The position numbers and the translations under genes are program-made. From positions 1 through 64,000 of the forward strand of contig CALVKR010000001.1 of NCBI GenBank assembly GCA_944332995.1: a stretch of 64,000 bases of DNA, read 5' to 3'. Under the pieces are notes generated by a model, which saw only the letters and a program-made list of their open reading frames with translations, made no database searches and was not told the DNA's origin. Shown in pieces: positions 1,296 to 22,898 of the stretch. The DNA comes from an uncultured Clostridia bacterium (GTDB lineage Bacteria; Bacillota; Clostridia; Christensenellales; CAG-917). Each line of letters begins with the position of its first letter. Within the stretch, counting starts at the first letter, position 1.

Positions 1296-3956
1296 AACAC
1301 GCCTCTCGTCATCTCTGAGGAATATATCTTGAATGACGTCGTTTGCCGTAACGGCGAAAGCGGTTCGCTGTTTTGCGGCGCCGATGAAGAAACAAGTTCC
1401 CTGCGAAGCCTCGGCAATAAGGTCTAACTCGGCGTCGTTTAATGCGTTTGCTCCGTCGTAAAGTTTTTCTAAATCTTTTAAATCACCGCTTGCAAGCGAA
1501 AAGACAAAATGATATTGGCTGTTATTTATTATCGCCATTGTCTTTTGAGCAATTTCTTCCGTCGAAGTAAAATCACGAATATTCTGCGTGATAAAGAGCA
1601 GCATACCTGCGTATTTTCTGATACGCTTTGCCATATCTTTCATATGGTTAAGCGCAATCGGAAAATCTTTATCAACAAAATTGTAACCCTCTTCTACTAC
1701 TAAAACAGAATGTTTAAGTTCGTCCGACGTCCTGTTTTGCTTTTGAATGTTTATGACTTCCTGTTCTATAAAGTTGAAAATCAAAAGCATTTGAGCGTTT
1801 GCAACAACGTTGTTTTTGCCCGACAGCAGACTTTGAAAGTTGAAAACGACAAAGTCTGTTTTGACCTCGAGCGTGCTCGGGCCGTTCCAAAGATTTGAAT
1901 ATCTGCCCCCATGCGCAAATTTTTCTATGTAAGCTTCCGCCCTCTCGTAATTTACAAGCATTGAGGTTTTTGCCGCATTTTGTTTTTTCGTTTTGATGAC
2001 ATCGAAAAGGTCGTCAAACGTCGGGAAATCACTCGCTTTCAATTTGGTGCAATCGGTAGAATCCGATATACCTCTTTTTTTATAGCACTCTCCTACAAGA
2101 TTGTTTATAAGCTCGAACGTATCGTTGTCTATGCCTTTTAAAATGATTCGCAAGAAAGACTCGAGAGTTCTGAGCTTTGAAGAAAATATCTCTTCAGGCG
2201 GCGCCTGAGAGCCGTCCTCGGTGAGGATCGGGTAAATATGGAACGGATTTATTCTGCCCTCGCCGCCGTTTCCGACGTCGATTATCGTGCCGTTTAAAGA
2301 GCGGGCAAGTTTTGAGTATTCATTTTCGACGTCGAGCACAAAAAAGCGACAGTTTCCGCTGTATAAATTGGTCAGAAGCGTTTTTGTGCAAAAACTTTTA
2401 CCGCTGCCCGGGCGACCGACAATGACGCAGTTTGAATTTGTATAATTTTCGCCGTCACGCTTGAACGGATTCAAAAAAACCGGATAAAGGTTCCACCCGA
2501 GCAGAAAACCGCCCTCATCGAGCATTGAAGTGTTTACAAAAGGAAACACGGCTGCCGCCGATGATGAGTTTATCCCCCTGTCAAACCTTTTCAAAAGATT
2601 GTTTTTTGTGATATTTTGAGCAATAACACCCTCAATTTGTTTAAATACGAGTTCGGAAACTTTAAAGCCGAGTCCCGTAATTTCGTGCCTTACCCTCTTT
2701 TTAAAACTTGAAAAATTGTTTTTGCGGTCTTTTTCGTCGCAGTCGTTTCCGAAAACGGTTAAAAGAGTGCTGCAATCAAACAGTTTTTCGTTGCCGTTTT
2801 TTATCGCTTCGAGCGTTTCGGAAAGCGTGTCAAGGTGCGTCGATTGCTCGAGCTGTTCGGACGCCTTCATTTTTTCTTGAGAGGCGATTTCTCTGAACGC
2901 TTTATCGAGCCTTTTTGTCGCTTCCATACCGCTGACAGGTTTAAACTTTAAAACAACCTTTGTGTTGTCTATATTGAAAAGCGACGCTCCCCATGCATTG
3001 TCTACCAAAATAGGATAATCTTTAATTGCAAAGCAAGAAGCGTAAATCGGCTGTGATAACTCGCTTGATTTAATAGAATAACGCCTCGAGCCAAACTTTT
3101 TAAACGATAATTCCTGCGGTTTAACCCAATCGAGATAATCTGCAAGCTCTATATCGTCAATTTCTCTTTCGTCAAAATTTCTCGTGTGACAATACTTCAA
3201 AAAAACAGCAGTCTGTTTTTCGTCAAGAAGTGCAGCAGACATTTTGTTTGGCTGTAAAATATCAACCGCTTCAACGCAAAGGTCGTCAAGCCGTGCTTTA
3301 TCGTTTGCGTAAAACACAAAATAAAAAGAGTTTGTGTAAATTTTTTCAATGTTGTTTATGACGTCGACGTCAAAAAGCCTTGACTCTAAAATAGCTTTTT
3401 TGACCTCGTTGTCCGTTTCTTCTAACTGTTCGTAAACGTCATAAGCCCAATAATCGAAATTGAGCGGACGGTCGATTTTTACAAGCTCGGCACGCTGAGA
3501 GTCGTCAAGCAAACATAAAACTTTTTCAAAAGCGGATATTCGGCTGTCCTGCGAGCTTTCGGATAAAAGCCCGAATTCGATTTGACCTATCTCAATGACT
3601 TTTGCATAATATCCTGCACGGTATTTTATGTAAGCGCCTTCCTCTATGTCGACATATGGCAAAACGTCGTCAATGCTGTTTTTTTCGGCGCCTTTTTTTA
3701 AAAGCTTGGGACTTGCAAGATATTTGATTATCGAAGCAAAAAACATATAGCCTTTTTCGTCACCGCCCCAATCTACTAGCAGAAAAAATCCGATAATCAA
3801 AAAAGCACCTGCAACAAACCATTTTCCCTCGAGGTTGCTTGACGCCGCAACCAAAACTATTGCAAGTATGACGGCGGCTATTGCAAAATCGATAATGGTA
3901 TAGCTTTTCCAAAGCGTTGTCACTATTTTTGTGTTTTTCGGTATAACTCTTTTCAT
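1293..3956 (-). CDS. PrgI-VirB4 fusion ATPase of the conjugative type IV secretion system
   Basis: This 887-residue ATPase should power pilus assembly and substrate transfer at the inner face of the membrane. Residues 1 to about 90 form a PrgI/VirB3-like module with two membrane segments (about 21-40 and 46-62) and the family-like tail GYMFFASIIKYLASPK. The rest is VirB4-like: Walker A GRPGSGKS at 514-521, then FVLDVENEYSKLA, and a Walker B-like SVLVVEEGYNF in the C-terminal third. PrgI and VirB4 are usually separate genes in Firmicutes ICEs, so this is a fusion. The start overlaps the stop of the VirB6-like gene by 4 bp, indicating translational coupling. The assignment rests on motifs and context. 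Confidence 0.92.
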   Translation of the reverse strand: MKRVIPKNTKIVTTLWKSYTIIDFAIAAVILAIVLVAASSNLEGKWFVAGAFLIIGFFLLVDWGGDEKGYMFFASIIKYLASPKLLKKGAEKNSIDDVLPYVDIEEGAYIKYRAGYYAKVIEIGQIEFGLLSESSQDSRISAFEKVLCLLDDSQRAELVKIDRPLNFDYWAYDVYEQLEETDNEVKKAILESRLFDVDVINNIEKIYTNSFYFVFYANDKARLDDLCVEAVDILQPNKMSAALLDEKQTAVFLKYCHTRNFDEREIDDIELADYLDWVKPQELSFKKFGSRRYSIKSSELSQPIYASCFAIKDYPILVDNAWGASLFNIDNTKVVLKFKPVSGMEATKRLDKAFREIASQEKMKASEQLEQSTHLDTLSETLEAIKNGNEKLFDCSTLLTVFGNDCDEKDRKNNFSSFKKRVRHEITGLGFKVSELVFKQIEGVIAQNITKNNLLKRFDRGINSSSAAAVFPFVNTSMLDEGGFLLGWNLYPVFLNPFKRDGENYTNSNCVIVGRPGSGKSFCTKTLLTNLYSGNCRFFVLDVENEYSKLARSLNGTIIDVGNGGEGRINPFHIYPILTEDGSQAPPEEIFSSKLRTLESFLRIILKGIDNDTFELINNLVGECYKKRGISDSTDCTKLKASDFPTFDDLFDVIKTKKQNAAKTSMLVNYERAEAYIEKFAHGGRYSNLWNGPSTLEVKTDFVVFNFQSLLSGKNNVVANAQMLLIFNFIEQEVINIQKQNRTSDELKHSVLVVEEGYNFVDKDFPIALNHMKDMAKRIRKYAGMLLFITQNIRDFTSTEEIAQKTMAIINNSQYHFVFSLASGDLKDLEKLYDGANALNDAELDLIAEASQGTCFFIGAAKQRTAFAVTANDVIQDIFLRDDERRV

Positions 3957-6016
3957 TTGTCTTCCCTCTTTTCTCTGTCTTTTCTTATTTGGCTTGTTAA
4001 AGTGTCACGTCTTACAATTTTGTCCGACGAAAATGCCGCTTCTATATCGCTAAGACGTTTAGTTCTTGCCGACACGTTTTTCTTTCTTTCCTCGCCGTAA
4101 TTTTTGGCATTTTCGTTGAACTCTTTAAATTTGTTTTTAAACGACTCAACCTTGTCCTGTGCCCTGAGTTTTGCAAGCCTTGCCCTGTCTAAAGCGTTAG
4201 TGCCGAAAGCGTGCAGATTTCGTATCCCTTTGTTTTTAGAATTCGCCATGGCACTTGATATTCTTCCTGCGCCCATTGCCGCAACGTATCTACCGCCTCG
4301 TCCAACCGCTTTAATTCCGCTTCCTATTTTGCCTACCGTTTTACCGATAAAGCCTTTTTCGCCGTTTGAACCGCCCCTTGCACGTCTCATCATTGCCGCC
4401 CCGAAAAGCATTCTGCCGAAAGATCCGGCGCCACGGAAGGCATTCATCATCTCACGGCTCTCTTCCGCACTCGTGCCGAAAAGCCTTGCAAACAAAAGCT
4501 GAGCTCCATATATCGAAACCGCACCGCCAATAATGAAAATAAGCTGTGCAACGCAGTTTACAACGTTATTTACCGAAAAGGAAATGCTTGTTATGAGCGG
4601 CAAAACAAGCAAAAACAGATTTACGGCAATCACCGTTCCGTATGCCAAAATCACTTTTGAAATCATCGTGTCTTTCCATAGTTTAAACCTTGCTCCGTCG
4701 TCCGACGGCATTGTGGCAATAGGAAACGGCATACTGAAAAACAAAAAGATAATGTCAAAAACTCGCTTTGCAAGCGACAGCGCCGAAACAAACAAAACGA
4801 TGATAAGCACAATTGCCGCAATATAGGCAAGCGCCCAGTTATACGTCAAAGGATCTATAAGCCCGATTTTATATTTTTTAATTACTTGAATACCATTACC
4901 TGCATATCTTTTCATCCCAGCAGATGTAAGATCAACTTCATTGTCAAACTTGTCAAATGTTGATTGAGTCTCACTGATAACTTGGCAGTCGTAAATATAT
5001 ACGGAATTATTAAACTCTTGAATATATCCTTTGGAAAAATCCTTAAATATAATTGGAATTATCTTTCCGCCAACAATATGTCCAATTTTAATATGCTGTT
5101 TTTTTTCAAAATCGTTTCTAGACTCTATTGAATAATCAATTTCCCCAATATCGCCGCTATCGAACAACCCTTTTTGGGCATATCTTATTGTGCTGACAGC
5201 CATTTTTAAACCATTAGTAGAGATTGAACTTGAATCAGCGAACATTTCTTTGACAAGCTTATATAATTCTATCCAATTTGTTTTATCCGACAGCTGAAAA
5301 TCTATAACGTCTTTAATCTGCTCAATTTCCTCTTTTAATAGCGGTTCTGTTTCTATCCATTCGTCTAAGTATTCAGACTTAATGGGAACGGCTACAAGCT
5401 CGCCTGATGAACTTGTGCCTTTATAATCGTCTATATCTTCAAATATTCCTAATACTCCCTCTTTACCGTATTCGCCTATAATATCGTTGCCGCTCTGAAC
5501 GCCGAGATTGACGTCTTTTATGCTCACACCCGGCCGCCAAGCCGTGCCGGATTCCACCGCTTCGGCGCCGATTGCGAAAATCCGCTGACTTAACGTATAG
5601 CTGTCGCCCTCTATCTGAAAGGCGGAATTTACCGCCCCGAGCGCAAGGTTTGAGGCGGCAATGCCGGTTATAGTGACGCTTGCAACAAGGAAAAAGGCAA
5701 AAAGTCCGCTAAAAAACTGACCTATTATCTTTCCGTTTGTCTTTTTCATAACAACAAGATTGCGTATCACGGCATAGGCGGTAAAGGCGCCGAGTATGCC
5801 GACGCCGACGATGATAAACACCCAAAATACGTTTGCCACCGTTTCGTTTTGCAAAAAGTAGTCAAGCAGCGACGTGCTGACGCCTGTGTTTTCCCCTGTC
5901 GACACCTTGACGTCCTCGATACCTGCAAAGACGTTGAACAACTGTTCGATATAATCGACAACTTTCAACAGCCCTGCAAGAATATTTGCAATGATTTTAT
6001 AAAAGAAAACGTCCAA
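3953..6016 (-). CDS. VirB6/TrbL-like polytopic membrane protein
   Basis: This 687-residue membrane protein should form part of the transfer channel. Hydrophobic segments occur near residues 60-85, 100-125, 395-420, 425-445, 455-480 and 485-510. They are separated by a large, mainly extracytoplasmic region (about 130-390) and followed by a basic, Gly- and Arg-rich cytoplasmic tail. That layout resembles VirB6-like proteins of Gram-positive ICEs (pLS20_p028 and Mbov_0396 types). The start is TTG at 6016, set by an AAAGGAG site; no better ATG is nearby. It is coupled to the PrgI-VirB4 gene by a 4-bp overlap. Confidence 0.85.
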   Translation of the reverse strand: MDVFFYKIIANILAGLLKVVDYIEQLFNVFAGIEDVKVSTGENTGVSTSLLDYFLQNETVANVFWVFIIVGVGILGAFTAYAVIRNLVVMKKTNGKIIGQFFSGLFAFFLVASVTITGIAASNLALGAVNSAFQIEGDSYTLSQRIFAIGAEAVESGTAWRPGVSIKDVNLGVQSGNDIIGEYGKEGVLGIFEDIDDYKGTSSSGELVAVPIKSEYLDEWIETEPLLKEEIEQIKDVIDFQLSDKTNWIELYKLVKEMFADSSSISTNGLKMAVSTIRYAQKGLFDSGDIGEIDYSIESRNDFEKKQHIKIGHIVGGKIIPIIFKDFSKGYIQEFNNSVYIYDCQVISETQSTFDKFDNEVDLTSAGMKRYAGNGIQVIKKYKIGLIDPLTYNWALAYIAAIVLIIVLFVSALSLAKRVFDIIFLFFSMPFPIATMPSDDGARFKLWKDTMISKVILAYGTVIAVNLFLLVLPLITSISFSVNNVVNCVAQLIFIIGGAVSIYGAQLLFARLFGTSAEESREMMNAFRGAGSFGRMLFGAAMMRRARGGSNGEKGFIGKTVGKIGSGIKAVGRGGRYVAAMGAGRISSAMANSKNKGIRNLHAFGTNALDRARLAKLRAQDKVESFKNKFKEFNENAKNYGEERKKNVSARTKRLSDIEAAFSSDKIVRRDTLTSQIRKDREKREDK

Positions 6017-6611: not shown

Positions 6612-9416
6612 TTACCTGTCCTGGACGCGCTGCTTTATCTTTTTTGTTTTTGGCTGAGACGTCGAATTAGTCAAAGCCTTATCGGCAACGTCTGCTTCGT
6701 TTGCGATTGTAGACACCTTGTCCTTATCGAGCCATTTTTCGATATTTTCCACTGCTTCCGATAAATTGTCCTGTTTATAATAACCGTGAAAAATTTTGTT
6801 ATCGCTGAGCATTTGCAAGACGTCTGCGTCAAGCTGCTTGCTCTCTTCGAGGTTGTGAACTCTGCCCTTTTGGGTAAAATTATTGCCTCTTACGATAAAG
6901 GCGTTGTAGTTATCAAAACTGTCATACCTATTGCGGATTACGTCTTTGTATTCTTTGTCAATGCTCTTTTTGCCGTAAACCTGACCTAAAAGCAAAGGCG
7001 AATCCGTCACAATGACGTCGACCTTTCCTCTGAGCCTGTTAAGGCGCTCATACTGACCGTCGGTAACAAACTTTTGGTCTTTTAGCATTTCCTCTTTGCC
7101 GTCGTATATGAGGTCCTTGGCGAACTCGGAAACGTATTCCGCATTTATACCCCTCTTTTTAAGCTCGAAACATATTTGCAAAGCAGCCGTAGACTTGCCT
7201 GCGCCGGGACCTGCGTACAAATTGATAACCTTAGTTTTTTGCGGTTTTTCCTCAAAATTTTGCGGTTTTTCCTCTTCCGTCGTGTCTGAAATGGATTTAG
7301 GCGGTTTTTTGGGGCTTTCTTGAGCGTCGTTTTCGACTTCTTGCTCATTTTGCTCATTCTGAGCGTCCTGCGACGTCTCAGACGCTTCCTCGATATTTTT
7401 GTCGTTGACCTTTGCATAATCTTCAGCAGACGTATTATTAACGACTTTCGAAAACTCTTCCGGTGTAAGCTCAATGATATCGCCGTTTCGATTGCGAAGC
7501 TTAACTGACTCATCATTTAAAAGCAATAGCTTATATGTTCCCGATTGATTGTCGCTTTCTTTGATACGATTGTTAAACATATAGTATACATAATCTGAAT
7601 ACTCACTGTTTTTCGGCATTTTCAAAAGTGACGAGTTGTCATACTTTTTGATAAGAGCGTCCTTTGAAACGAATATCTCGTTCCACTTTTTCTTTTTTTG
7701 TGTATTCCCACCCTGTTGAACGGAATCGTCTTTTGGTGACGTCGCAGACTGATTATCTGACTGATTATCTTGCCATGTTACTTCTTTGTTTGTGTTCTCG
7801 CCCACAGCTTCTTGAGGAACAGCCATTTCTTGTTCATTTTGCTCGCTCTGAGCGTCTTGCGATGTCTCAGACGGTTGATCGGCAGATTCTGTTTCTGCGA
7901 CGTTATCTTTTGAAAACAAATAATCGCACATCTTAAAGATTTCGTCACGTTGTTCTTTGCTACTAAAGCCGGCTTTTAAGAGGCCGTCATAGGCTTCACG
8001 AATGTGCTTTTCCAAACCGCCGTTTTCGCTTCCAATGTCGTAACGACAGTCAAGGTATTGCTGAATTTTGCCGTTTGAATCGAGGTAAGAAATATGAAGT
8101 TTCGTTTTAAAATATCCCCCCTCTGATAAATACCTTTGATTGTCTTCCGTTAGCATTTTATCTGCCATAGAAAGAGGCATAACAGTTCCTCGGTATTCAG
8201 GCTTGTTGAGCTCGCACCATTCGAAAGCTACCATAGGCTCACCTGTTTTTAAGGCGAGTTTGGCAGACTCTCTTATGACATCTTCAGTCCTCTGAACAAA
8301 AACAGGATATTCCTTTGACTGTTGCTGTTGAACTGTCCTGCTTGCATTTTCCGACGTCTGAACGTCTTGCGACGTCGCAGGTTGATTTTCTGTTTCCAAG
8401 TGTTGATCCTCGCCTTGAACCTGCGTATTTGCCATGTCACTTTCAGAAGAATTTTCTGCGACGTTCACGTTATTAAGTGAATGCTCGAAGTCTTCTAAAT
8501 AGCTTGCAATTTTTGAAGCGTCTGAAATAGCGTCAAATAGATAGTTTGTGTCTTTTTTTAGTCCTGCAATCCAACTTTTAACGTAAGCGGCATGTTGCTT
8601 GATGTGTTCTTCGCTATTCTGCAAGTGATATTCGTCGCTTAAAAACATACTTGCAATTTCCGCTCTAAGCTCTTCTTTTGCATAACTTTCGCTTCCGAAA
8701 GCTGCGTTGGCTTCCACCCCTTTAAAACGATTAAGGCGAGAAGAATGACCTGTCGAATGTGCCGCCTCATGCAAAAATGTTGAATACAAGCCATATTCAT
8801 TTTTAAAGTTTTCTCTAAACGGCAGATGTATCTCATCTTTGGTAACGCTATAATAAGCACTATCGTCCTTGTCAAAATATACCGGACATTGAAACTTTTT
8901 TATAAGATTTTCAAGACGTTCGTGTCTTTCAATAGTCACTTGTTCTGATTCAGGCTTAAGCTCTAGCTTAGGAATATTTTCCATTTGCTCGGCATTAAAA
9001 ACATAATATATTTTTCTCTGAGTATATGTATTTTTTATTAAATACTCTGACCTCTCTTGAGGTGTCATATCTTTTACAGTATCTTCATCAAAAGGTTTTT
9101 TTGTGTTTTTATCATACCTGTTAAACCACTCAATTGGTGTGCCTTTTTCTCCTTTTTTGATATGCCATTTGTTTTTACTTGCCATATCAAAAGTGCACCA
9201 ACGATTATCTTTGTATCCTTTGTCTAATGCGGCGAGCATAAGTCTGAACCTGTTGACACCGTTGTAATAATTCTTTGTTACAGGATTAAAAGCCGGTTTA
9301 AAAGCCATATTTTCGACTGAAGTCCACGGTTTTTGCCAAGGAGCGGTGCCGCTTTCAAATTGAGAAATAAGCTTATCGACAAGCTCCTGACGGTTTTTAT
9401 CTGCATAATTAGGCAT
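6612..9416 (-). CDS. ArdC-type antirestriction/polyvalent protein with C-terminal P-loop domain
   Basis: A 934-residue multidomain protein. Residues 1 to about 150 match the ArdC-type ssDNA-binding domain (ELVDKLISQFESGTAPWQKPW, YYNGVN). Residues about 165-310 are a zincin-like metallopeptidase with HEAAHSTGH at 216-224. A middle segment (about 370-500) resembles polyvalent-protein associated domains (LDCRYDIGSENGGL). Low-complexity linkers repeat SQDAQ(S/N)EQNEQE. From about 728 there is an ATPase or kinase-like domain with NLYAGPGAGKST as Walker A. ArdC proteins protect incoming conjugative DNA in recipients; the extra domain is unusual. The gene lies 3 bp after the 64-residue gene on the same strand and downstream of ssb, consistent with establishment functions. 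The P-loop substrate is unknown. Confidence 0.88.
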   Translation of the reverse strand: MPNYADKNRQELVDKLISQFESGTAPWQKPWTSVENMAFKPAFNPVTKNYYNGVNRFRLMLAALDKGYKDNRWCTFDMASKNKWHIKKGEKGTPIEWFNRYDKNTKKPFDEDTVKDMTPQERSEYLIKNTYTQRKIYYVFNAEQMENIPKLELKPESEQVTIERHERLENLIKKFQCPVYFDKDDSAYYSVTKDEIHLPFRENFKNEYGLYSTFLHEAAHSTGHSSRLNRFKGVEANAAFGSESYAKEELRAEIASMFLSDEYHLQNSEEHIKQHAAYVKSWIAGLKKDTNYLFDAISDASKIASYLEDFEHSLNNVNVAENSSESDMANTQVQGEDQHLETENQPATSQDVQTSENASRTVQQQQSKEYPVFVQRTEDVIRESAKLALKTGEPMVAFEWCELNKPEYRGTVMPLSMADKMLTEDNQRYLSEGGYFKTKLHISYLDSNGKIQQYLDCRYDIGSENGGLEKHIREAYDGLLKAGFSSKEQRDEIFKMCDYLFSKDNVAETESADQPSETSQDAQSEQNEQEMAVPQEAVGENTNKEVTWQDNQSDNQSATSPKDDSVQQGGNTQKKKKWNEIFVSKDALIKKYDNSSLLKMPKNSEYSDYVYYMFNNRIKESDNQSGTYKLLLLNDESVKLRNRNGDIIELTPEEFSKVVNNTSAEDYAKVNDKNIEEASETSQDAQNEQNEQEVENDAQESPKKPPKSISDTTEEEKPQNFEEKPQKTKVINLYAGPGAGKSTAALQICFELKKRGINAEYVSEFAKDLIYDGKEEMLKDQKFVTDGQYERLNRLRGKVDVIVTDSPLLLGQVYGKKSIDKEYKDVIRNRYDSFDNYNAFIVRGNNFTQKGRVHNLEESKQLDADVLQMLSDNKIFHGYYKQDNLSEAVENIEKWLDKDKVSTIANEADVADKALTNSTSQPKTKKIKQRVQDR

Positions 9417-13400: not shown

Positions 13401-15148
13401 TATTTACCTTGAGTAGCAACGTTGAATTCTTTTGATAAAACTACTTGCCACTCACCACCGTCTATACGATAGTTAATCGATACAAAATTAAAGTCGTCGG
13501 CCGCTACCGAAAAAGAATGATTTGTGTAAAAAACGTTTCCGCTTCCTGTGACGCAGTCGAATATATTCAGCGTCGGTTTTGTCAGGTCGATTGAAAATGT
13601 TTTTTCAGTTTTGTTACCGCAAAAATCAACGACTTCAATCTTGAACGTTCCTTCTTCGAAAAAATAATTTGTGGTGGAAGATATGTATTTAGGTATTATT
13701 TCGGTCTGCAAAAAGGACGTAAGCCTTGCAACGTCGAAAAAGATATATGTGGTATTGCCGTCCGTGTATTGATAATAGTTCGAGCCCTCGAGCGCATAGG
13801 ACTGCTCACTTGATATAATCGTTCCTGTGACGGAATCGTTCCAATTTGAAAACGATGAAATTTTGGAGCACTCAAGCTCAAGCAATGCCGTCTCAATTTC
13901 TTTTTTTGTGTTATATAGATTATATGTAGGATAACCTTGCCTGCTGTCATAATAGACGGTTTTTCTTATGTAGTTCGTCCAATAGTCCAAAATTTGCCAA
14001 CGGTTATTCTCATATCGATATATTTTTGTTGTGACGTCGCCGCCACCGCCCATATCGGAAATATTGAAATATAACATTTCATTGCTGTTTGCAACGTCAA
14101 GCAACGTTTGGCCGCTCTTGTTTTTGACCTCGATATACGGATTGGTTAAATCGATAAATATTGTTGTCTGCGTTGTTCTGTTATATCTGTCGGTTGCGGT
14201 AAACGTATGTTTCCCCTCACCGAGCTCGGATAATTTATATGTATATTCCGTTTCATTAAAGCTAAGCGATTTACCGTCAAGAGCAATATAATTTAAAGTT
14301 GTATCGGAAAATTCTACGGTAAAACTATCCTGTTCGATACCGAAATAATATATACCGTTTGAATATTTATAAGATTTATTTAAGTTAATAATCGGCGAAC
14401 GGTTATCGTAGTATATTATGTAGGTCGTCGTGTGTCCTACTTCGTCAACAGCTTCTAATACGTTTTTACCCTCGGTTAAGGTGACAATATTATCATTCCC
14501 TGCCGTAGCGGTATAATCAAATTCCTTGCCGTCACCGTCCGTAAAGGTAAATGAAGTCAGAAGATTGTCTGAAGCCGAAACATAAAAAAATCTGCCTTTT
14601 GACTGCGTCCACAAAACTTCATAAGTATCTTTAGACACGTAATCAAACTGAACGGCTTCATAATCATTTTCTGAAATTTTTTTATTTACCGTAATAACGG
14701 GCGAATCGCCGTCAAAATAAAAATTATATTCGGTTAGTGCATTTGTTGAACTGCCGTATTTAAACGAATAATATCCGTCTGGCAAATTTATCGTTTTATC
14801 AAGTGTTCCGTCATAATAGTTTTTGTTCGCAAAATACATATCTGTATAAGAACTTAAATTGCTCAGTAGATTTTTCGATTTTGTCGTCAGATTGTAAAGT
14901 TGAACAATGTTGTAAGTAGTGGTTAAATTGACATAACCTATCTGTCCGTCAATTTTGTTTAATCTTAAGAAAACTGAAGTAGCTATACTTCCGGTGTAAA
15001 AACTGCCATTGATTTTGTAAACTATGCCGAATACAGCCTCTGCATAAGCTACGTTACACTGCGATGACAATGATATTAAAACACAAACGGCAACTATTGC
15101 TAATAAAATAACAAATACTATTTTTTTGTTACGAACGACCGTTTTCAT
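10424..15148 (-). CDS. Very large cell-surface protein with Ig-like repeats
   Basis: This 1574-residue protein starts with a signal peptide (hydrophobic segment about 11-27, cleavage near AYAEA) and ends with a membrane segment (about 1545-1567) followed by KTKRRKAV. It should be membrane-anchored with the bulk outside. The ectodomain consists of many beta-sandwich-like repeats, each ending in a line such as GKYTFIMTDLYGRT, GTYTIYAQDLYLNT, GKYSVIVTDEFGNV or GQYELTLTDDVGNV, typical of bacterial Ig-like modules. There is no LPxTG motif. The start overlaps the coupling-protein gene by 20 bp and follows an AGGAGA site. Its place between T4CP and pilin suggests a donor-recipient adhesin or aggregation factor; this is inferred. 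Confidence 0.88.
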   Translation of the reverse strand: MKTVVRNKKIVFVILLAIVAVCVLISLSSQCNVAYAEAVFGIVYKINGSFYTGSIATSVFLRLNKIDGQIGYVNLTTTYNIVQLYNLTTKSKNLLSNLSSYTDMYFANKNYYDGTLDKTINLPDGYYSFKYGSSTNALTEYNFYFDGDSPVITVNKKISENDYEAVQFDYVSKDTYEVLWTQSKGRFFYVSASDNLLTSFTFTDGDGKEFDYTATAGNDNIVTLTEGKNVLEAVDEVGHTTTYIIYYDNRSPIINLNKSYKYSNGIYYFGIEQDSFTVEFSDTTLNYIALDGKSLSFNETEYTYKLSELGEGKHTFTATDRYNRTTQTTIFIDLTNPYIEVKNKSGQTLLDVANSNEMLYFNISDMGGGGDVTTKIYRYENNRWQILDYWTNYIRKTVYYDSRQGYPTYNLYNTKKEIETALLELECSKISSFSNWNDSVTGTIISSEQSYALEGSNYYQYTDGNTTYIFFDVARLTSFLQTEIIPKYISSTTNYFFEEGTFKIEVVDFCGNKTEKTFSIDLTKPTLNIFDCVTGSGNVFYTNHSFSVAADDFNFVSINYRIDGGEWQVVLSKEFNVATQGKYEIYSLDGFGNASDVYTVHFIVRDSLGNVTSIKNEYKQPTYYIVTLPSRVFGTAQGFSFGDYDSALAFAFQKEFNQRVTRLSDGTYSYVTVANESVYSVYQTLSSVNAAVEYYAKKYVSEQKTFSDKSNQNVYYTIMSSSGVADEGALTSNLLTKPSLLNSYSENVYLANSTYQLKQYFDIQSKLELYFVAFDNVLSERKSIPIVYGQTFLEALTASDNIVQGYYLFIERDSCGNVESALLYFDLTAPKLSVSVTDGQGQSSATIDSSYIQAASSIYALSFDITAIDDFDEFSFLKIVGGNINSVYVSGNDFPTLDTNSGAGEYVVTLYDRSYNTLEFKVIIAGDEPSLYHSSLSNQTRVSISILLNDRYNALMSLGLFKIDAMGEYTELLYDSDGKAISVSDLDYVLREGGKYTFIMTDLYGRTVEFEPFFYEKGLPTGTLSCQNKSVTNKLVTFLYNSSNYILDVYTLSDSGAKTYFSNYQSSDTDGYTTISISATADNNKSFMLYMYNASDPSLFNEYYFSIDTIAPAFSIFTTSGERVEANSATNQGFNIVCNEVGATVRYSINGISKAYNAGDEINTQGLYTFTVKDIVGNSESFTVYLDNVCSISVEGDYTLDGGIYKTNSALTIVAKEDLKEFYVVSSSGIVVEPGKPFSANGTYTIYAQDLYLNTKTISIVINNILPKIQLTNVLIGGTTSNAVTVYFDKGQATLSKDKADSVFIQSGDSVSEHGKYSVIVTDEFGNVATVSFNIDKIVDYTANCESGIVTTDTVKLSFNEQLLSCVLIKDDVLQNDVPTTFTQTGFYKIEACDMYSNTLSFEFTIIASKTKEPEFIAPENFEISYVIQNGNMLSLDSKTVFNYGSDGIYTIALTSLPTSNTYSFDIQYDSTVPSLDIVFSDDGKQVSFSNLSKKVNGILKLNGEQISWTENKVLSDVGQYELTLTDDVGNVVVYRFEIKKQLNVWAIISIIVAVSLVAAVVVIVIKTKRRKAV

Positions 15149-17402
15149 CTGACATCTCCTCTTCTATTTGTTTTAAAATTTCATTTTGATAAAAAACGTT
15201 AAATTTATCTATGAGCAAGGAAAGCGATATGTTTTCACTCTCTTGTGCCACTTCATCGATTTTCCTTAAAAAAGCAGAAAGAAATTTGATATTTGACATC
15301 GAAAAATCCTGCTCTAAAATTGATAAAATGCTCTCTAACTCCTCAAGTTGCTCATCGGTAAGCAATGCCAATATTTCTGAAAGATTTCTTTTTAGTCTTT
15401 CGAATTTATTGTTATTATTGTTGTCGATACCGTTATTTGCTGTCTCGAGGCTATCTTGCTCCATACTTTGCTCCGACATCTGAGAACCCAACGTTTTCTC
15501 GATATTATCCGAGGTAGTGTTTATATCGTATTCAATATCTTTGCAATCAAAAGGTGTTTCCTTCCCAAGTTCGAAAGCCTTATCGGAAAGAGAGTATTTT
15601 TTTGTGTTGAAAGATAAAGTAAACTTTGCTTTCAGCGGCGGATAGCCAAAACACAGGCAGATTGCGTTCCCCATGTCGTCACCGTTATTGAGCTTTTCAA
15701 GCTCGGACGGATATATCAGAGGTCTTTCGTGGACGGAAACCTGCGCCGATGAGCTTTCGGACGAACCGCTCGTAAGAGTCAAAGACTTGATTTTCTTCTT
15801 GCCACATAGGGACGAAAACTCCTCTATGGTGTTTTTGTCGGTTGTCCCGAGAAAAATTTTAATGTTACAGTTCGACTTTATCGTCTGCGCAATCTTATCG
15901 CCGTAACGGGTAAAAAGCTGATTGTAGTCTTGCACCACAAGATTAAAGAATATATTTCGAGAACGGCCGACAGTAATCATTGAGTCGAACTTCTCGATTT
16001 TAGGCAAGTTACCGAACTCATCGAGTAAAAAGTAAACGTTTTTTAACAGTTTTTCTTCAGTGGTCTTCCCCTTTTTGAAGTTTTGATTTGCTTTATCGAC
16101 AAGCTCTTTATATAACTGCTGAATCATCAATGTTGCTAAAGAATGTAAATTATCTTTCTCGTCCGGGACCTCGATAAATAATACGGTAGGCTCTTCGTCA
16201 AACTTGGAAAAATCCATTTCATTTTTAGAAGTGAGTGCCTGAACGCTCGTCGAATTAAACCACTGTGCGTATTTGTTGACGTCTGTCAAAAAAGACGAAA
16301 GAGTTCTGTCTTGTGTTATCAAAACTGTGTTTGCCAACGCCGGGGCTTTTGAGCCGTCCGGACGCATTGAAAAATAGCGCTTTAAATTATCGGCCTCAGA
16401 GTCTAAATTTTGGCTGATATTTTTATAAATGTTATAAAAATTGAGGTGTTTCGGTTCGGCAATATTCAGCTCAATATCTTCGGATATACCGAGCGCAAGA
16501 GCAAATATTAAATCCCTTGCTCCGTTTTGCCAAGTCTGGTCGTTGCTGTTGGATATCGGACAGACCGCATAAACAATGTCCTTTATGAGCTGATAACATT
16601 CCTCTTTAACTTTTTGCCCGTAAACAACAGCATTCTCTTTAGCTTCAGCGTATGTTTTAAATGTGTCATCTCCGACAACGTATTTCCCTGCTTTAAAATC
16701 GATATGACCGTCTTGAATTTTTGAAAGATTTACCAATCTTTCAATTACCGGTTTAAAAGGATTCCACTTTGAGCTCGCAAAAATCTCCCTTAAATTCAAA
16801 ACTTTTACGGTATAGCCCTGCTCTTGTAAAAGCTGACCGTGACCTCGAAGCAACTCACCTTTGGGGTCGGAAATAACTAACGACGGTTTAGTCTTGCAAT
16901 GAGCTAAAATTTGTATTACGGGATTTATAAATCCTGTTGTTTTTCCGCTTCCTGTGGTGCCGACGATGAGCGAATGAATAGGCTTTGTCAAAATGATTTT
17001 TGACTCTTTTTTTTGCTCGTTGTCATAAATAGGCAATCCGTCCGCCGTCTGCGATAAATGATCCCAAGACGTTAAAGTAAAAGTGTTACTAACTTTAACA
17101 TCTTGAAACGTGAGCCACCTTGCATTTTCTAAATCGTTCTTTTTTAAAACACGTTTAAAAAGAATATTAAAATTAAGAACACAAAAAAGAGCGGCTATTG
17201 CAAGAATGCAAATGAAAAGATAAATAACAAGAGAAGTCGAAAAAATGTCCTTGACGTTTTCGGAATTAACAGTTCCGTATCGAGCGGCAACGACCGCAAC
17301 GCCTAAAAGTATGTAAAGTAAAAACAAGCCCAATATTGCAACTGCGCCAATAAGTAAATGCTTTTTCCAATTAAGCGTTTTCAACTTCTCTTTAATATTC
17401 AT
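15129..17402 (-). CDS. VirD4/TraG-type coupling protein (T4CP)
   Basis: This 757-residue ATPase should deliver the relaxase-DNA complex to the secretion channel. Two membrane segments (about 15-40 and 55-78) are followed by a cytoplasmic motor: Walker A GTTGSGKT at 148-155, SLVISDPKGELLRGHG, Walker B YFLLDEFGNLPK, and a conserved VVQDYNQL segment. The tail (from about 630) is Asn-, Glu- and Leu-rich and may bind the relaxosome. The ATG overlaps the stop of the RHH gene by one base (TAATG), so translation is coupled. Confidence 0.95.
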   Translation of the reverse strand: MNIKEKLKTLNWKKHLLIGAVAILGLFLLYILLGVAVVAARYGTVNSENVKDIFSTSLVIYLFICILAIAALFCVLNFNILFKRVLKKNDLENARWLTFQDVKVSNTFTLTSWDHLSQTADGLPIYDNEQKKESKIILTKPIHSLIVGTTGSGKTTGFINPVIQILAHCKTKPSLVISDPKGELLRGHGQLLQEQGYTVKVLNLREIFASSKWNPFKPVIERLVNLSKIQDGHIDFKAGKYVVGDDTFKTYAEAKENAVVYGQKVKEECYQLIKDIVYAVCPISNSNDQTWQNGARDLIFALALGISEDIELNIAEPKHLNFYNIYKNISQNLDSEADNLKRYFSMRPDGSKAPALANTVLITQDRTLSSFLTDVNKYAQWFNSTSVQALTSKNEMDFSKFDEEPTVLFIEVPDEKDNLHSLATLMIQQLYKELVDKANQNFKKGKTTEEKLLKNVYFLLDEFGNLPKIEKFDSMITVGRSRNIFFNLVVQDYNQLFTRYGDKIAQTIKSNCNIKIFLGTTDKNTIEEFSSLCGKKKIKSLTLTSGSSESSSAQVSVHERPLIYPSELEKLNNGDDMGNAICLCFGYPPLKAKFTLSFNTKKYSLSDKAFELGKETPFDCKDIEYDINTTSDNIEKTLGSQMSEQSMEQDSLETANNGIDNNNNNKFERLKRNLSEILALLTDEQLEELESILSILEQDFSMSNIKFLSAFLRKIDEVAQESENISLSLLIDKFNVFYQNEILKQIEEEMSDENGRS

Positions 17403-18478: not shown

Positions 18479-19783
18479 TTATTTGCTTTGTGTTTTTTGT
18501 TGCTCTCTTTCTATTTCCTGCCTCGACTTTTCTAAGTCGTGCGTGAAATCATTTTTGATAAACTGATAATGCGTATGAAAACGTCTTAGCATATCAAGCA
18601 AATTATGTCGCTTTCTTAAACGTTCGTTTTTAGCGTTAATTTTTGCCGACTTATCGTTTTTGCTTTTAGATATATATCTGCGTTTAAACAAATCCGACTC
18701 AATATCACCGTCACGCAGCCGAACGGCAGACTTAATGACAATGTTGCCTAAACGAGCTTTGAAATCATTTCTGAGTTTATCTATAACCTCTGGTCTGTAT
18801 TCGATAGCTCTAAGCGCCGACTCTTTATCGAGTTTGCCAAGACGTTGAAGCTTATATATCTCTTCCGGTTTCAAAGACGTATTGCCGAACATCAGATTGT
18901 TGTCTAAGCATATCTTTTTGATTTCCGCTTCTCGTTTAAGAAGTTCCGCCGTCCACGCTTTTTCGGCTTCAATAAGTTTTGGACTCGATAAAATAATGCT
19001 CGATACAACGTCATCGACAGCTTTCCTGGTGGCATTATCAATGTTTTTGGAATTGTATTGCAGTCTACCCTGTTTTGGCAGCATATCCGATAACTGTTTC
19101 ATTTTTTTAGCTATAATAGGAAACTGTTCTTCATTTCCGGCTACAGCAGGAGCGTATATTTTAAGCTCCTTTACTATGATTTCACGATAAATGTAAAGGT
19201 CATCAACGTAGTTGTCGATATACATATTGCCGTTTATCAAAAAGTCCTCGATGTCTCTCATATCGAGACTACCCTTTTTTGTAAACGAGATATTGCCTCT
19301 TGAGTCAATAGTTTTAGGTTCCTTTTCGAAGAACATAAAATGGATATGATGATGATTTTCCGTATCGGTATGCAGACCGCATATAAGCTCTATATTTTTA
19401 ATATCTATACGACTATGACCGAAAAGCCTTTTGAAGTTTGCCGATAAAAAATCAATACATTCCTTTTGTGTTGTAAAATTTTTCGATGTTTCTTCATCGA
19501 AAGAGATAAAACCGTGCCATATATTCGAGTCCGTCAGAGCTAAACGGTCGTTTATCATTTTCATCTCATCGGAAGTAATAACGCCTTTATGATTAAAAAA
19601 GCCGTGGCCGCATTTATTCATATAGTCGTCATATCTGTCATACGTTTTGCAGATTTTATTTTTATCGCCGACGTATTTCGCAAAATTATACGCTTTCGTG
19701 TTCGAGTAAAAGTTACGCTCGTCTTTATCGAAAGCGTCTTTAGGTGTAAAACGTATGTTAAAAATAATCTTTGGTGCGGACAT
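18479..19783 (-). CDS. MOBP-class (MobL-like) relaxase
   Basis: This 434-residue relaxase should nick oriT and pilot the strand into the recipient. The N-terminal half carries the features of Gram-positive MobL/MobP-type relaxases: YDDYMNKCGHGFF, IWHGFISFDEE and the histidine cluster GLHTDTENHHHIHF with His138, His144-146 and His148 for metal binding. The catalytic Tyr cannot be fixed from sequence; Tyr49, Tyr51 and Tyr54 are candidates. The C-terminal half is basic and helical, ending in Gln/Lys-rich sequence. It starts 2 bp after the mobilisation gene, with AGAGGAA as ribosome site. Confidence 0.9.
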   Translation of the reverse strand: MSAPKIIFNIRFTPKDAFDKDERNFYSNTKAYNFAKYVGDKNKICKTYDRYDDYMNKCGHGFFNHKGVITSDEMKMINDRLALTDSNIWHGFISFDEETSKNFTTQKECIDFLSANFKRLFGHSRIDIKNIELICGLHTDTENHHHIHFMFFEKEPKTIDSRGNISFTKKGSLDMRDIEDFLINGNMYIDNYVDDLYIYREIIVKELKIYAPAVAGNEEQFPIIAKKMKQLSDMLPKQGRLQYNSKNIDNATRKAVDDVVSSIILSSPKLIEAEKAWTAELLKREAEIKKICLDNNLMFGNTSLKPEEIYKLQRLGKLDKESALRAIEYRPEVIDKLRNDFKARLGNIVIKSAVRLRDGDIESDLFKRRYISKSKNDKSAKINAKNERLRKRHNLLDMLRRFHTHYQFIKNDFTHDLEKSRQEIEREQQKTQSK

Positions 19784-19785
19784 AT

Positions 19786-20229
19786 TCAGTTCCTCTTGTT
19801 ACGTTGCATATTAAGTGTTTTTAAAGCTTTTTCTTTAAATTGCTTTAAATTTTGAGGTAAAATTTCGAGCATGGACTGCTCAGTATCGACAATTGTGCTG
19901 TTTTGTATTGCTAAAATGTTGTAAACTATTGTCGACAAAATGCTTGTCACCTTTCCGTCGATGAGTATCTCGTCAAGCTTCAGTGATATTGCATTAACTT
20001 TTTGCAATATCTGCTCCGTCGCCTGACTGTTCGAACTTTCACTTGTCGATATTTTCGTGTTTTTATTTAACAATTTTTCCGAAAGTTCACTGAGCCCAAG
20101 CTCGAGAGCTTTACAGAGTAATTCATTTTTGCTTTTAAAAAAATTGCCACACTCGAGCTTTTCGATTTCGTCAAGAATAGCTATGTTGTATACTCGTATA
20201 TTCACTTTGTTTGAGCAATTTTTTTGCAC
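19786..20229 (-). CDS. MobC-like mobilisation accessory protein
   Basis: A protein of about 147 residues directly upstream of the relaxase. The N-terminal 50 residues look like a ribbon-helix-helix DNA-binding region (KVNIRVYNIAILDEIEKLECGNFFKSKNELLCKALE). The rest is helical and Gln/Leu-rich, probably for oligomerisation or relaxase contact. Start choice: GTG at 20238 is open, but the GGTGG site (20235-20239) better serves the GTG at 20229, which I use. It faces the palindrome-rich region 20290-20500, a likely binding target. The function is inferred from position and fold. Confidence 0.72.
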   Translation of the reverse strand: MQKNCSNKVNIRVYNIAILDEIEKLECGNFFKSKNELLCKALELGLSELSEKLLNKNTKISTSESSNSQATEQILQKVNAISLKLDEILIDGKVTSILSTIVYNILAIQNSTIVDTEQSMLEILPQNLKQFKEKALKTLNMQRNKRN

Positions 20230-20342
20230 TATGACCACCTTTTTTTGTGTTTTTTAATACCGATTTTCAGCAAATTTGGTTTCCAAATTGTGCCATTTTC
20301 GGTGGTGGCAAAGTGCCACCACCCGAAAAAAAAGTGCTGGCA

Positions 20343-20415
20343 CTTTGCATAGAGTTTATTTATATATATAAATATACTTATGCAAAGAGCATTTTTGAAA
20401 AAAGTGCCGGCACTT
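20343..20415 (-). promoter_or_regulatory. Possible operator-flanked promoter of the mob operon
   Basis: On the minus strand TTGCAT (within 20379-20387) is followed 17 bp later by TAAATA in an AT-rich 18-bp palindrome. Palindromes of the form GTGC(C/T)GGCAC flank it at 20331-20346 and 20402-20415. This could be an autoregulated promoter for the mobilisation-relaxase genes. The alternative is an AT-rich unwinding element between iterons. Confidence 0.4.
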
Positions 20416-20459
20416 CCCTTAACCTGCTTACTAAAAATAAGCAAAAAAATAAAGAATTT

Positions 20460-20495
20460 TGTCACCCCGGGGGGTGACACCAGTGAGCCACCCCC
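20460..20495. repeat. Intergenic copy of the rep-gene iteron
   Basis: This 36-bp stretch is the reverse complement of 22027-22062 with one mismatch. It contains the inverted repeat GTCACCCC/GGGGTGAC. Confidence 0.92.
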
Positions 20496-20718
20496 AATTC
20501 TTGCCTATAAAATCAGCCGCAGCTACAATCTACAATCCCTTCTCCTCGGATTTATTTGTAACTTGCAATTACACCGTTCTAAAATTGCTGCGGCTGATTT
20601 TCGGTCGTCTCGCTGTCTTTGGACGAGACGAGGTTTTTTGTCGCTGCGCTGTCTTACGACGCAACGACGTTACGGGTATTTTTTCAAACGCCTTGCGGCG
20701 TGTGAAAACACAGAAAAA

Positions 20719-21633
20719 TCATCTGGAATCTCGGCCTATACGTTTATGCAACGTCGAGATAGCATTGTCTATCGTTCGTCTGCCGTAACCGTTGTTCCAT
20801 TTTTCTTCTCGATACAGTCCCGAGCTTTTAAAAATCCTTTCCATTTGCTCGGCATTGCAGTCTGTGAAGAAAGCAAGTATATTGCACAGCATAAAGTCGC
20901 TTTCGGAATGATTGTTTTTTATATCCTCGCCGGCGTAAAGCCTGTCGAAAATATCGCCTTTTTTAGATTTGCGTATGGCTTCGATAACCTGGTCGTCGCT
21001 CCTGTTTTTATAACGGTATTGATTTGATGACTTTTGAGTTAAATTTGAAAACGTATTTACCGTTCCTAAATTCTCCTTGCAAATTTTTAAAAAATCAAAA
21101 TTTGCAGGCACCAATTCCGATTTTGAACTGCCAAACGGGATCCCGGTCATCGAAATAAATTTTGCCTCGGAATAGCATTCAATGCCGTTAGCATGATTTG
21201 CCTTTTTTACTAAAGCAAATTCGTTCGGCTGAGCTTTAAAAAAGAAGTGTAATCCATTCTGAGACTGTGACAGCTCCGTATAGCCGTTTTGCGATTTACT
21301 TAATAAATCATATGCCAAAGCGCTAAAATCGCCGTCTGCGCCCTTACAGTGGTCGAGGTCGACACAATGAATACCGTTTTCCTTGCATAAAGCAAAGGAT
21401 AAGCCTTTCAGATTGTTCTTTTTACAAAACGAAACGGCTTTGTCAAACGAAGCCCACGTCGATGAATCATTCGCTTTTGCATACGGTATAAATCTTCCTT
21501 TTGGTGTTGAGTTAGGATTATAAATACGCTTCACAAGTTTTCCGTCGCTCTCTTTCACAAGGTCAAAACAGCACCAGCAGTTCAGCTTTTTCATTTCATC
21601 GGGTATGTTGTTAAGATTTTCTAAGTAACTCAT
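20719..21633 (-). CDS. PrimPol-type (archaeo-eukaryotic) primase
   Basis: A 304-residue primase-polymerase candidate for replicating the element. Three signature regions are visible: HCVDLDHC with the metal-binding pair Asp92/Asp94, SQNGLHFFF with His129, and IECYSEAKFISMTG (151-164). The C-terminal third (about 215-300) resembles the helical domain seen after plasmid and phage PrimPol domains (SEADFMLCNILAFFT-like core). No helicase domain is fused. The start overlaps the rep stop by 4 bp, so both are made together. AEP-family membership follows from these motifs; the exact subfamily is uncertain. Confidence 0.85.
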   Translation of the reverse strand: MSYLENLNNIPDEMKKLNCWCCFDLVKESDGKLVKRIYNPNSTPKGRFIPYAKANDSSTWASFDKAVSFCKKNNLKGLSFALCKENGIHCVDLDHCKGADGDFSALAYDLLSKSQNGYTELSQSQNGLHFFFKAQPNEFALVKKANHANGIECYSEAKFISMTGIPFGSSKSELVPANFDFLKICKENLGTVNTFSNLTQKSSNQYRYKNRSDDQVIEAIRKSKKGDIFDRLYAGEDIKNNHSESDFMLCNILAFFTDCNAEQMERIFKSSGLYREEKWNNGYGRRTIDNAISTLHKRIGRDSR

Positions 21634-22760
21634 CTTTCCACCACCCCTTTAAAAGAATAATTGACAATGCTTTCACATATATCTGAATTATCGTTGTATG
21701 ACGACGTTATAACGTCTAATATCTCTTCCGGTTTCAAACGGCTTGAGAGAACACAGAAGAAGTTGTCCTCATTGCACTTTTTGGCCAAAAAGCTTGAAAG
21801 GTTAAATAAGCTTTTGTTAAACCTCTCAATATTGTCAAAACGCTTTTCAAACTCTGTATCATACTCTAAAAGCTTCTGATAAAGCATTGAATATACGTTT
21901 TCAGCTAAAAATACGTCTTTTTCTGTGGATAACTTGCCATTATCTATATCAATTTTTTTTGTGTTATATATACTTGTATTCTTTATTAAATCTTTAATAA
22001 TATTATGTGTCTCACTGGTGTCACCCGGGGGTGTCTCACTGGTGTCACCCCCCGGGGTGACATTTTCACAAATATGTGAATTATGCGTAGATATATAGTT
22101 CAAATAAGAAAGCTCATCGGTAAATAAAAGTCTTTTACTATTGTTCAAAATATATCTAAACAAATAATGCTTTTCCTCTAATTCCTCAATTTTCCGATTT
22201 ATAGTCGCCCTGCTACAGTTAAATAACAAGCTGAAATACTTATTTGAGGCAAAAGAATAACCGAACTCATTGCACAGCGCCGTGATTTCGGCATAGAGAA
22301 GCTTTGAGGTATAGTCGAGCTCTTTATCCTCTCTGACCTCTTTTGTCAAGACGGCATAATATGCACGGTATGGCACCGTCTCGTCATCGGGCCTGGCTTT
22401 AAGGTCGATTTCTTTGACCTCGAAGTAAACAACGTCGTTTTCCGTCAAACCGTTGGATATAGCAAAATCGATTGCGTGGCTTTTTTTGATAAACAAATAA
22501 CGCTGTTGCTGATTTGTCTCATCAGTCAATGTGACTTTGTAAATGAAGCCGGCTTTGAGCAAAGCGTCAAGCCAACGCTGCATAGTCCTCTCCGATGAAT
22601 GGAAAAACTGCAAAAATTCCTTGTTCGTCAAACAGGAATACATATTCAGACTTACCGCCGAACTGATTTCGGAATAGAGAAGTTTAGCTCCTTGCGGTAA
22701 ATCGCGATCATATCTGACTCTTGCCGGAAGTATTGAAAAATAGTTAGAAAAAAAAGACAT
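21630..22760 (-). CDS. Replication initiator with two winged-helix domains
   Basis: A 376-residue probable Rep. Residues about 1-90 (YFSILPARVRYDRDLPQGAKLLYSEI...) and about 130-205 (YYAVLTKEVREDKELDYTSKLLYAEI...) are related winged-helix domains in tandem, like the DNA-binding part of RepA_N-type initiators of Gram-positive plasmids and ICEs. A short repeated linker follows (TPGGDTSET, then PPGDTSET), encoded by direct DNA repeats that look like iterons. The C-terminal domain (about 270-376) is helical. The ATG lies in one arm of a perfect hairpin 50 bp from tRNA-Ser. The primase gene follows with a 4-bp overlap. Confidence 0.85.
   Translation of the reverse strand: MSFFSNYFSILPARVRYDRDLPQGAKLLYSEISSAVSLNMYSCLTNKEFLQFFHSSERTMQRWLDALLKAGFIYKVTLTDETNQQQRYLFIKKSHAIDFAISNGLTENDVVYFEVKEIDLKARPDDETVPYRAYYAVLTKEVREDKELDYTSKLLYAEITALCNEFGYSFASNKYFSLLFNCSRATINRKIEELEEKHYLFRYILNNSKRLLFTDELSYLNYISTHNSHICENVTPGGDTSETPPGDTSETHNIIKDLIKNTSIYNTKKIDIDNGKLSTEKDVFLAENVYSMLYQKLLEYDTEFEKRFDNIERFNKSLFNLSSFLAKKCNEDNFFCVLSSRLKPEEILDVITSSYNDNSDICESIVNYSFKGVVER
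22007..22062. repeat. Iteron-like direct repeats inside the rep coding sequence
   Basis: Two identical 20-bp copies (22007-22026 and 22031-22050) of GTGTCTCACTGGTGTCACCC with a 24-bp period, followed by the inverted repeat GTCACCCC/GGGGTGAC (22044-22061). The period is a multiple of three, so the reading frame is kept. RepA_N-type replicons are known to carry their origin iterons within rep. Confidence 0.92.
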
Positions 22761-22809: not shown

Positions 22810-22898
22810 TGGCGGAGAAGGAGGGATTCGAACCCTCGATACCTTGCGGTAAACACGATTTCCAATCGTGCGCCATAGACCAACTAGGCGACTTCTCC
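22810..22898 (-). tRNA. tRNA-Ser (anticodon GGA), CCA encoded
   Basis: An 89-nt gene with a 7-bp acceptor stem GGAGAAG/CTTCTCC, discriminator G and encoded CCA. The anticodon stem CACGA/TCGTG carries loop TTGGAAA (anticodon GGA, reading UCC/UCU). A long variable arm and TTCGAAT T-loop are present. The 3' end points into the conjugative element, which starts within 50 bp, so this is the likely integration target. The 3' portion is not repeated elsewhere in the window. Confidence 0.97.

Follow-up and report, generated by a model that had tools for sequence, protein, structure and literature searches.

A probable origin of transfer with a conserved nick core and a bulged hairpin in an integrative conjugative element of an uncultured Clostridia bacterium

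The DNA analysed here (the window; 64,000 nt, positions 1 to 64,000 of contig CALVKR010000001.1, assembly GCA_944332995.1) comes from an uncultured Clostridia bacterium of the order Christensenellales, and coordinates given without a contig or locus name refer to it. It potentially carries an integrative conjugative element whose genes, read leftwards, encode a replication protein with an HTH_36 domain (Rep), a primase-polymerase (prim-pol), a ribbon-helix-helix (RHH) protein, a relaxase, ParA, a 93-amino-acid (aa) protein and a coupling protein. Between the prim-pol gene (20719-21633, minus strand) and the RHH gene (19786-20238, minus strand) lie 480 bp (20239-20718), which contain a candidate origin of transfer (oriT) and are the region studied. 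An earlier reading of the letters alone, hereafter the sequence-only reading, had placed this region between primase and relaxosome genes, and the two flanking genes bear this out.

The sequence-only reading had listed at least seven inverted repeats in these 480 bp, and each of them was recovered at or very near the position it had been given. When folded as single-stranded DNA, 20263-20426 reached -44.0 kcal/mol against -16.5 +/- 2.9 kcal/mol for shuffled sequences (z -9.4, 0 of 200 shuffles), and 20427-20718 gave a z of -5.4 (0 of 200 shuffles), so the structures of both halves exceed chance. Going rightwards from the RHH gene, the left half contains a bulged hairpin GCAAATTTGGTTTCCAAATTGTGC (20270-20293, minus strand; GCA[C]AATTTGG-AAA-CCAAATTTGC in the mob sense, i.e. 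the direction in which the mob genes are read), a hairpin with 14-15-bp arms (GGTGGTGGCAAAGTGCCACCACC, 20296-20328, no strand assigned) and an inverted repeat (p=0.005 versus shuffles) with a distal arm AAGTGCTGGCACTTT (20332-20346, plus strand) and an arm AAAGTGCCGGCACTT (20401-20415, plus strand) that adjoins the putative nick site (nic). The palindromes GTGCTGGCAC (20334-20343) and GTGCCGGCAC (20404-20413) are spaced by 70 bp, and the loop of the repeat holds an AT-rich palindrome (20340-20390, 51 bp, 88% self-complementary) whose inner part, with 13-nt arms (20353-20378), lies between them. The nick core follows at 20417-20429 (minus strand; AAGCAGGTTAAGG in the mob sense and 5'-CCTTAACCTG/CTT on the plus strand, the presumed transferred strand, where the slash marks the predicted cut). 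The bulged hairpin and the nick core, neither of which the sequence-only reading had mentioned, are the most conserved parts of the region.

Relatives of the element were sought through its relaxase. Within the order, a single-sequence search hit 37 of 297 genomes and a profile search 49 of 396, and a class-wide search of a thin sample (391 genomes) found no member of the family outside the order. In IMG/VR the single sequence had no match and the alignment matched one contig; PLSDB plasmids yielded just one distant MobL protein of Mesomycoplasma. A prim-pol query of genome contigs returned one match only. The prim-pol gene lies directly upstream of the mob genes in nine loci, with proteins about 30-40% identical, and the relatives have kept the order prim-pol, intergenic region, RHH gene, relaxase and coupling protein (the gene preceding the relaxase was recognized as an RHH relative by blast in four of these loci and by its position in others). 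The nine intergenic regions cannot be aligned overall, yet they have parts in a common order, namely, in the mob sense, variable hairpins, AAGCAGG[A/T]TAAG, inverted repeats, a GGA[A/C]ACC hairpin and the RHH gene, one locus (L054) showing the nick core variant AAACAGG. The inverted repeats are element-specific and often surround a palindromic core, and AT-rich or short palindromic cores are present within the repeat of several relatives.

The same picture was obtained with 33 distinct relaxase-linked elements, in which the core AAGCAGG[A/T/C]TAAG, an inverted repeat and a GGANACC hairpin occur in one order upstream of the relaxase, and the position of the nick core with respect to the relaxase genes is constant. 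The core and the hairpin precede the relaxase or RHH gene in nearly every family member with sufficient upstream sequence, and both are kept in elements that have no RHH gene. Nine distant relaxases (below 220 bits), which served as the negative control, had neither of them. Conservation among relatives had been named in the sequence-only reading as one of the points on which its proposal would stand or fall, and 20270-20429 is conserved.

Read on the other strand, the core of the 33 elements is CTTA[T/A/G]CCTG/CTT. The oriTs of MOBP systems have the consensus (C/T)ATCCTG(C/T), which is cut at or just after the hexamer, and bear an inverted repeat just 5' of it (PMC3772185). Most relatives match this consensus exactly, and the window core TAACCTGC has one mismatch to it. 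Extrapolation from RP4 places the predicted nick of the window between 20426 and 20427 of the plus strand. Tested one by one, the inverted repeat that starts within 0-4 nt of the core was significant in 25 of the 33 elements (p<=0.025 versus shuffles). Its position is constant between elements and its sequence is variable, as expected of element-specific binding sites, and its arms are probably the sites of the RHH protein. A separate observation, made by eye on just ten related sequences, is that a Phe in the RHH strand accompanied GGTG instead of AAGTG arms (5 of 5 versus 1 of 5).

The left half resembles the MOBP oriTs of RP4, the Agrobacterium VirD2 borders and H. pylori tfs4, which have TATCCTG/C in common with most relatives, as well as the inverted repeat immediately 5' of the core and the intergenic position upstream of the mob genes (PMC3772185). 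It differs from them in the mismatch of the window core, in a relaxase near the MobL/MobP2/P3 families, in the enlargement of the repeat loop by the AT palindrome and in the additional conserved bulged hairpin. In the staphylococcal pWBG749 family (SmpO/SmpP), the RHH protein SmpO sets oriT specificity; there too, a conserved core adjoins a subtype-specific repeat, the RHH gene lies between oriT and relaxase, and relaxase-less mimics occur elsewhere (PMC8136818). The binding sites of that family are 65-67 bp apart (PMC8136818), close to the 70 bp between the palindromes here. This likeness is one of architecture; the relaxase is different, and the distal hairpin here shows stem covariation and a bulge. 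The MOBL prototype pLS20 (PMC5675868) has a nick sequence, GAATCGGGGGCCGG, unlike the present core, and two genes that separate its oriT from its relaxase. The label MobL-type, used in the sequence-only reading, suits the relaxase (Pfam MobL, PF18555, hits 11 of the 15 members of its family, the best at 3e-23) and not the nick core, which resembles that of the RP4/VirD2 MOBP systems. The window relaxase itself did not match PF18555 and is regarded as a relative of Pfam MobL, not as a filed member. Against NCBIfam MobP3, which all 15 family members matched at E<=0.001, it scored 61 bits, below the curated cut-off of 150.

As regards the bulged hairpin, 99.3% of the cells of its inner stem are paired in 27 sequences, with 36 double changes against 10 in shuffles, and a one-column shift of the stem partners abolished the covariation signal. 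A group of 16 has a single bulged base, mostly C, on the 5' side (pairing falls from 97.5% to 77.3% when the bulge is left out) and a group of 10 has an invariant bulged C on the 3' side (from 97.8% to 71.1%). An alignment of the short-type module gave the same covariation picture for both hairpins. A double-stranded palindrome would hardly account for a common bulge, and a folded single strand is the likelier form. That strand could be RNA: the hairpin would be present in most mob transcripts and, in elements with an RHH gene, precedes the RHH start by 5-40 nt, and a leader controlling translation of the first mob gene, instead of a part of oriT, would also require a folded single strand with a conserved bulge. 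We consider such a leader unlikely and favour a role in transfer, because the bulged hairpin is kept in copies where no relaxase follows; moreover, the hairpins of L053 and L056 are about 190 and 80 nt away from the candidate relaxase start, and G-U pairs are almost absent from the stem.

The 396 genomes were scanned with R1, a covariance model of the short-type module, which detected 136 copies outside the window, in 73 genomes. Just 18 of these copies have a family relaxase within 2.5 kb, in every case downstream in the mob sense, and 51 genomes in which the family relaxase was not found account for 93 copies. Being present in loci with no family relaxase nearby, the module is not just a mob-gene leader.

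These features of sequence, position and structure indicate that the left half (20270-20429) is very probably the oriT of an integrative conjugative element. Several points weigh against it: the hexamer of the window core is AACCTG, one base off ATCCTG, and those of L041, L051 and L057 also deviate by one base; the nick position is a prediction; L041 has no clear nick-proximal repeat; the shuffle statistics are inflated by the kinship of the elements; and against the short-type model the window obtained only a weak score (17.9 bits, E 0.015, the best in the 64 kb). The sequence-only reading had suggested that the region may combine a vegetative origin (oriV) with an oriT. The comparative evidence for the oriT is strong. 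An oriV is possible; the right-half sequences are not conserved, even if structured DNA next to the primase gene recurs in relatives. An autoregulated mob promoter is plausible from the layout, as the RHH gene directly follows and the palindromes lie upstream; no promoter stood out in a scan of the region (4 weak matches versus 1.6 expected).

Transfer from this oriT could proceed as follows. The RHH protein would bind the repeated GTGC(C/T)GGCAC-type arms and bend the AT-rich core, which would aid the relaxase in melting the nick core and cutting the plus strand between 20426 and 20427. The relaxase would remain on the 5' end and transfer would proceed rightwards, so that the hairpin array, prim-pol and rep would enter the recipient first and the mob genes last. 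The repeat and the bulged hairpin, located 5' of nic on the transferred strand, may then be recognized again to end transfer. If the plus strand is transferred, 20427-20718 enters first, followed by prim-pol and rep, both templated by the transferred strand, a layout compatible with leading-region genes (PMC11541004).

The right half (20430-20718) would accordingly be hairpin-rich leading-region DNA beside the prim-pol gene, with a possible role in priming or as a vegetative origin. On the plus strand, it contains a palindrome (20460-20479) that forms a 28-mer with GTGAG (20460-20487; a candidate Rep or primase initiation site), a large stem-loop of 93 bp downstream of the prim-pol gene (20509-20601; perfect 15-bp arms at 20509-20523/20587-20601 and a 63-nt loop) and the hairpins A (20605-20631, loop CTGTCTTTGGA), B (20640-20668) and C (20681-20708, adjoining the prim-pol stop codon and devoid of a T run). 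As had been described, two of these consecutive hairpins have a common loop word: A and B both contain GCTGTCTT, and they sit within a 36-bp direct repeat (D1). An Rfam scan found tRNA only. Right-half sequences, including the 28-mer and the GCTGTCTT loops, do not recur in the relatives. Of the Rep iteron announced by the sequence-only reading, the palindrome was recovered; there is one plus-strand copy only and it is not conserved. The sole other full copy of the 28-mer is inside rep (22035-22062, minus strand, identical), and 22006-22026 is a partial copy. With 3 mismatches or fewer allowed, the 28-mer was absent from 42 other genomes of the family searched, and neither it nor its surroundings gave a relevant match in IMG/VR, phages or plasmids. 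As the peptide encoded by the repeats at 22006-22062 is a linker, GGDTSETPPGDTSETH, it may be the DNA rather than the protein that is under selection.

The leading hairpins would most likely assist the prim-pol encoded next to them in priming or replicating the strand that arrives. More specifically, the right-half structures could be single-strand initiation (ssi) sites on the incoming strand for the RepB'-like prim-pol, akin to ssiA and ssiB of RSF1010, a possibility that we hold only tentatively. In RSF1010 ssiA, a hairpin is followed 3 nt later by GTG, with one site per strand (PMC4434180). The 28-mer resembles it in geometry, with a hairpin, CCA and then GTGA, once per strand and flanking the primase gene, and GTGA is also a motif preferred by the NrS-1 prim-pol (GTGA/GTGG, PMC8718748). 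The leading segment folds better than shuffles in eight of the nine relatives with an adjacent primase (z -2.1 to -7.1), the exception being L042, whose leading region is unstructured. Its mean z was -4.0 with an adjacent primase versus -0.7 without (p=0.001), a comparison confounded by the mostly coding nature of the primase-less stretches; as evidence for ssi sites this enrichment was downgraded for that reason. A hairpin followed by GTG, considered as a general ssi signature, was rejected since it was found in only one of the nine relatives.

We regard as unlikely that the region is mainly a vegetative origin of the pRN1 kind, with the 28-mers as Rep iterons, the AT palindrome as melting site and the large stem-loop as start site. 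In plasmid pRN1, a 100-bp stem-loop located downstream of the prim-pol gene (stem of 21 nt, loop of 58 nt) is required, and its shape is conserved whereas its sequence is not (PMC4234260). The 15-bp stem and 63-nt loop of the window are similarly placed, rep adjoins prim-pol, and the 28-mer is common to the region and rep. However, the AT palindrome lies within the oriT repeat, in a layout conserved together with the relaxase, the 28-mer is missing from the 42 family genomes, the window primase, unlike the pRN1 protein, lacks a helicase domain, and an origin of this kind accounts at best for the right half. The likeness to RSF1010 ssiA/ssiB and to the pRN1 stem-loop, i.e. hairpins beside or for an archaeo-eukaryotic-type primase, is an analogy only. 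Ordinary transcription terminators or neutral intergenic repeats are more doubtful still: the hairpins do come after the stop codon of prim-pol and their sequences are not conserved, but they have no T tracts, the region has one terminator-like site versus 1.0 expected, and strong folding recurs in eight of the nine relatives.

The neighbouring genes were characterized as follows. The RHH accessory protein has 150 aa, with an alternative GTG start at 20229. Its N-terminal domain is modelled as an RHH fold (pLDDT 93), which was superposed on NikR, CopG and PrpA with Z 3.7-4.0 and root-mean-square deviations of 1.8-2.5 over 39-40 residues; this comparison comprised three chains, all of RHH proteins, and Foldseek's own score was weak (E 2.7). 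The isolated domain was required, the whole protein having no clear match in PDB, and an alignment of the RHH proteins did not match PDB sequences or Pfam. The MobL/MobP-like HUH relaxase (434 aa, 18479-19783, minus strand) belongs to a family with an invariant HxD...HxH motif, and the type IV coupling protein (15129-17402, minus strand) matches Pfam T4SS-DNA_transf (5e-46). Further genes beyond it potentially encode SSB-like and ArdC-like proteins and an apparent type IV secretion system (named from translations; ArdC confirmed by Pfam). The prim-pol (304 aa), encoded on the leading side of nic, consists of a catalytic and a helix-bundle domain and matches Pfam NrS-1 HBD (8e-17), PHROG DNA primase (2e-58) and PDB primases (6e-17). 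The Rep-like protein (21630-22760, minus strand) matches Pfam HTH_36 (1e-11) and PHROG replication initiation protein (3e-26). A tRNA-Ser gene abuts rep, and an exact copy of its terminal 21 bp (22810-22830, minus strand), presumably an attachment repeat, is located close to the beginning of another contig (G000:C2:1068-1088). The arrangement is consistent with an integrative conjugative element at tRNA-Ser with its far end on the second contig, an assembly gap remaining between them. No integrase was identified for the window's element.

In L043, the prim-pol on the leading side of oriT forms the C terminus of a large protein (L043:722-3178) with an ArdC N-terminal domain, a metallopeptidase, MutS domain I and NrS-1 HBD by Pfam. 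Similar long proteins are found in L041, L044, L045, L046, L057 and L069; in the window, unlike L043, ArdC (6612-9416) and prim-pol are separate genes. A short word, TTTTTTTGTGTTTT (AAAACACAAAAAAA) or GAGAACACAAAAA, recurs in the window (20240, 17561, 10034, 9097, 3926, 1130, 13900 and 178) and in L043 (442, 1678, 2146 and 3492), sometimes beside gene starts.

Among the R1 copies, 18 pairs are at most 3 kb apart, and 15 of the 18 are divergent, with their leading sides facing each other (p 3e-7 against an expectation of one-quarter, copies related by descent being uncorrected). The divergent pairs (loci L315-L328; e.g. G154:C16:1618-/3085+, G167:C1:165308-/166176+, G019:C7:25050-/25798+, G179:C16:3172-/3358+ and 11 others) are spaced by 122-1399 bp, and the inverted-repeat sequences differ within a pair in the cases read. 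No family relaxase was found in the 6-14 kb fetched at 16 paired loci, some of them near contig ends and with other relaxase families not searched. At several of these loci there are genes for a large serine recombinase, for a conserved small protein of about 100 aa (KDKRYEEKHKAERKAKN..., no Pfam match) and for restriction-modification systems of type I, II or III, a ZacC-like helicase also being among the defence genes (cargo at L316:1897-3579 and 3812-4123, L317:3597-5369, L319:3-2852, L321:151-1794 and L323:8647-12880). Orphan RHH genes adjoin relaxase-less oriTs at L317:7402-7833 and L318:7166-7534, as if the specificity factor were supplied in cis. Two convergent pairs about 20 bp apart show the opposite of the usual orientation (G764:C35:99285+/99371-, L329; G289:C22:24760+/24856-, L330).

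No paper describing the nick-plus-bulged-hairpin module was found in the literature searched, most subscription journals being outside its coverage. It is conceivable, at somewhat less than even chances, that the module represents an undescribed oriT class, widespread in one order, in which the covarying bulged hairpin is an obligatory part of the relaxosome, and that relaxase-less, sometimes defence-carrying elements exploit it with two divergent oriTs of different specificity. If this is true, the segment between two divergent oriTs would enter the recipient first whichever helper relaxase acts. The present analysis provides a sequence-and-structure definition of oriT, with a precise predicted nick, for the conjugative elements of a poorly studied order. 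It makes testable what the bulged hairpin does at oriT and whether hairpins of the leading region serve the prim-pol as starting points for the second strand. Relaxase-less elements also become recognizable as mobilizable, and in our sample most module copies sit away from the family relaxase.
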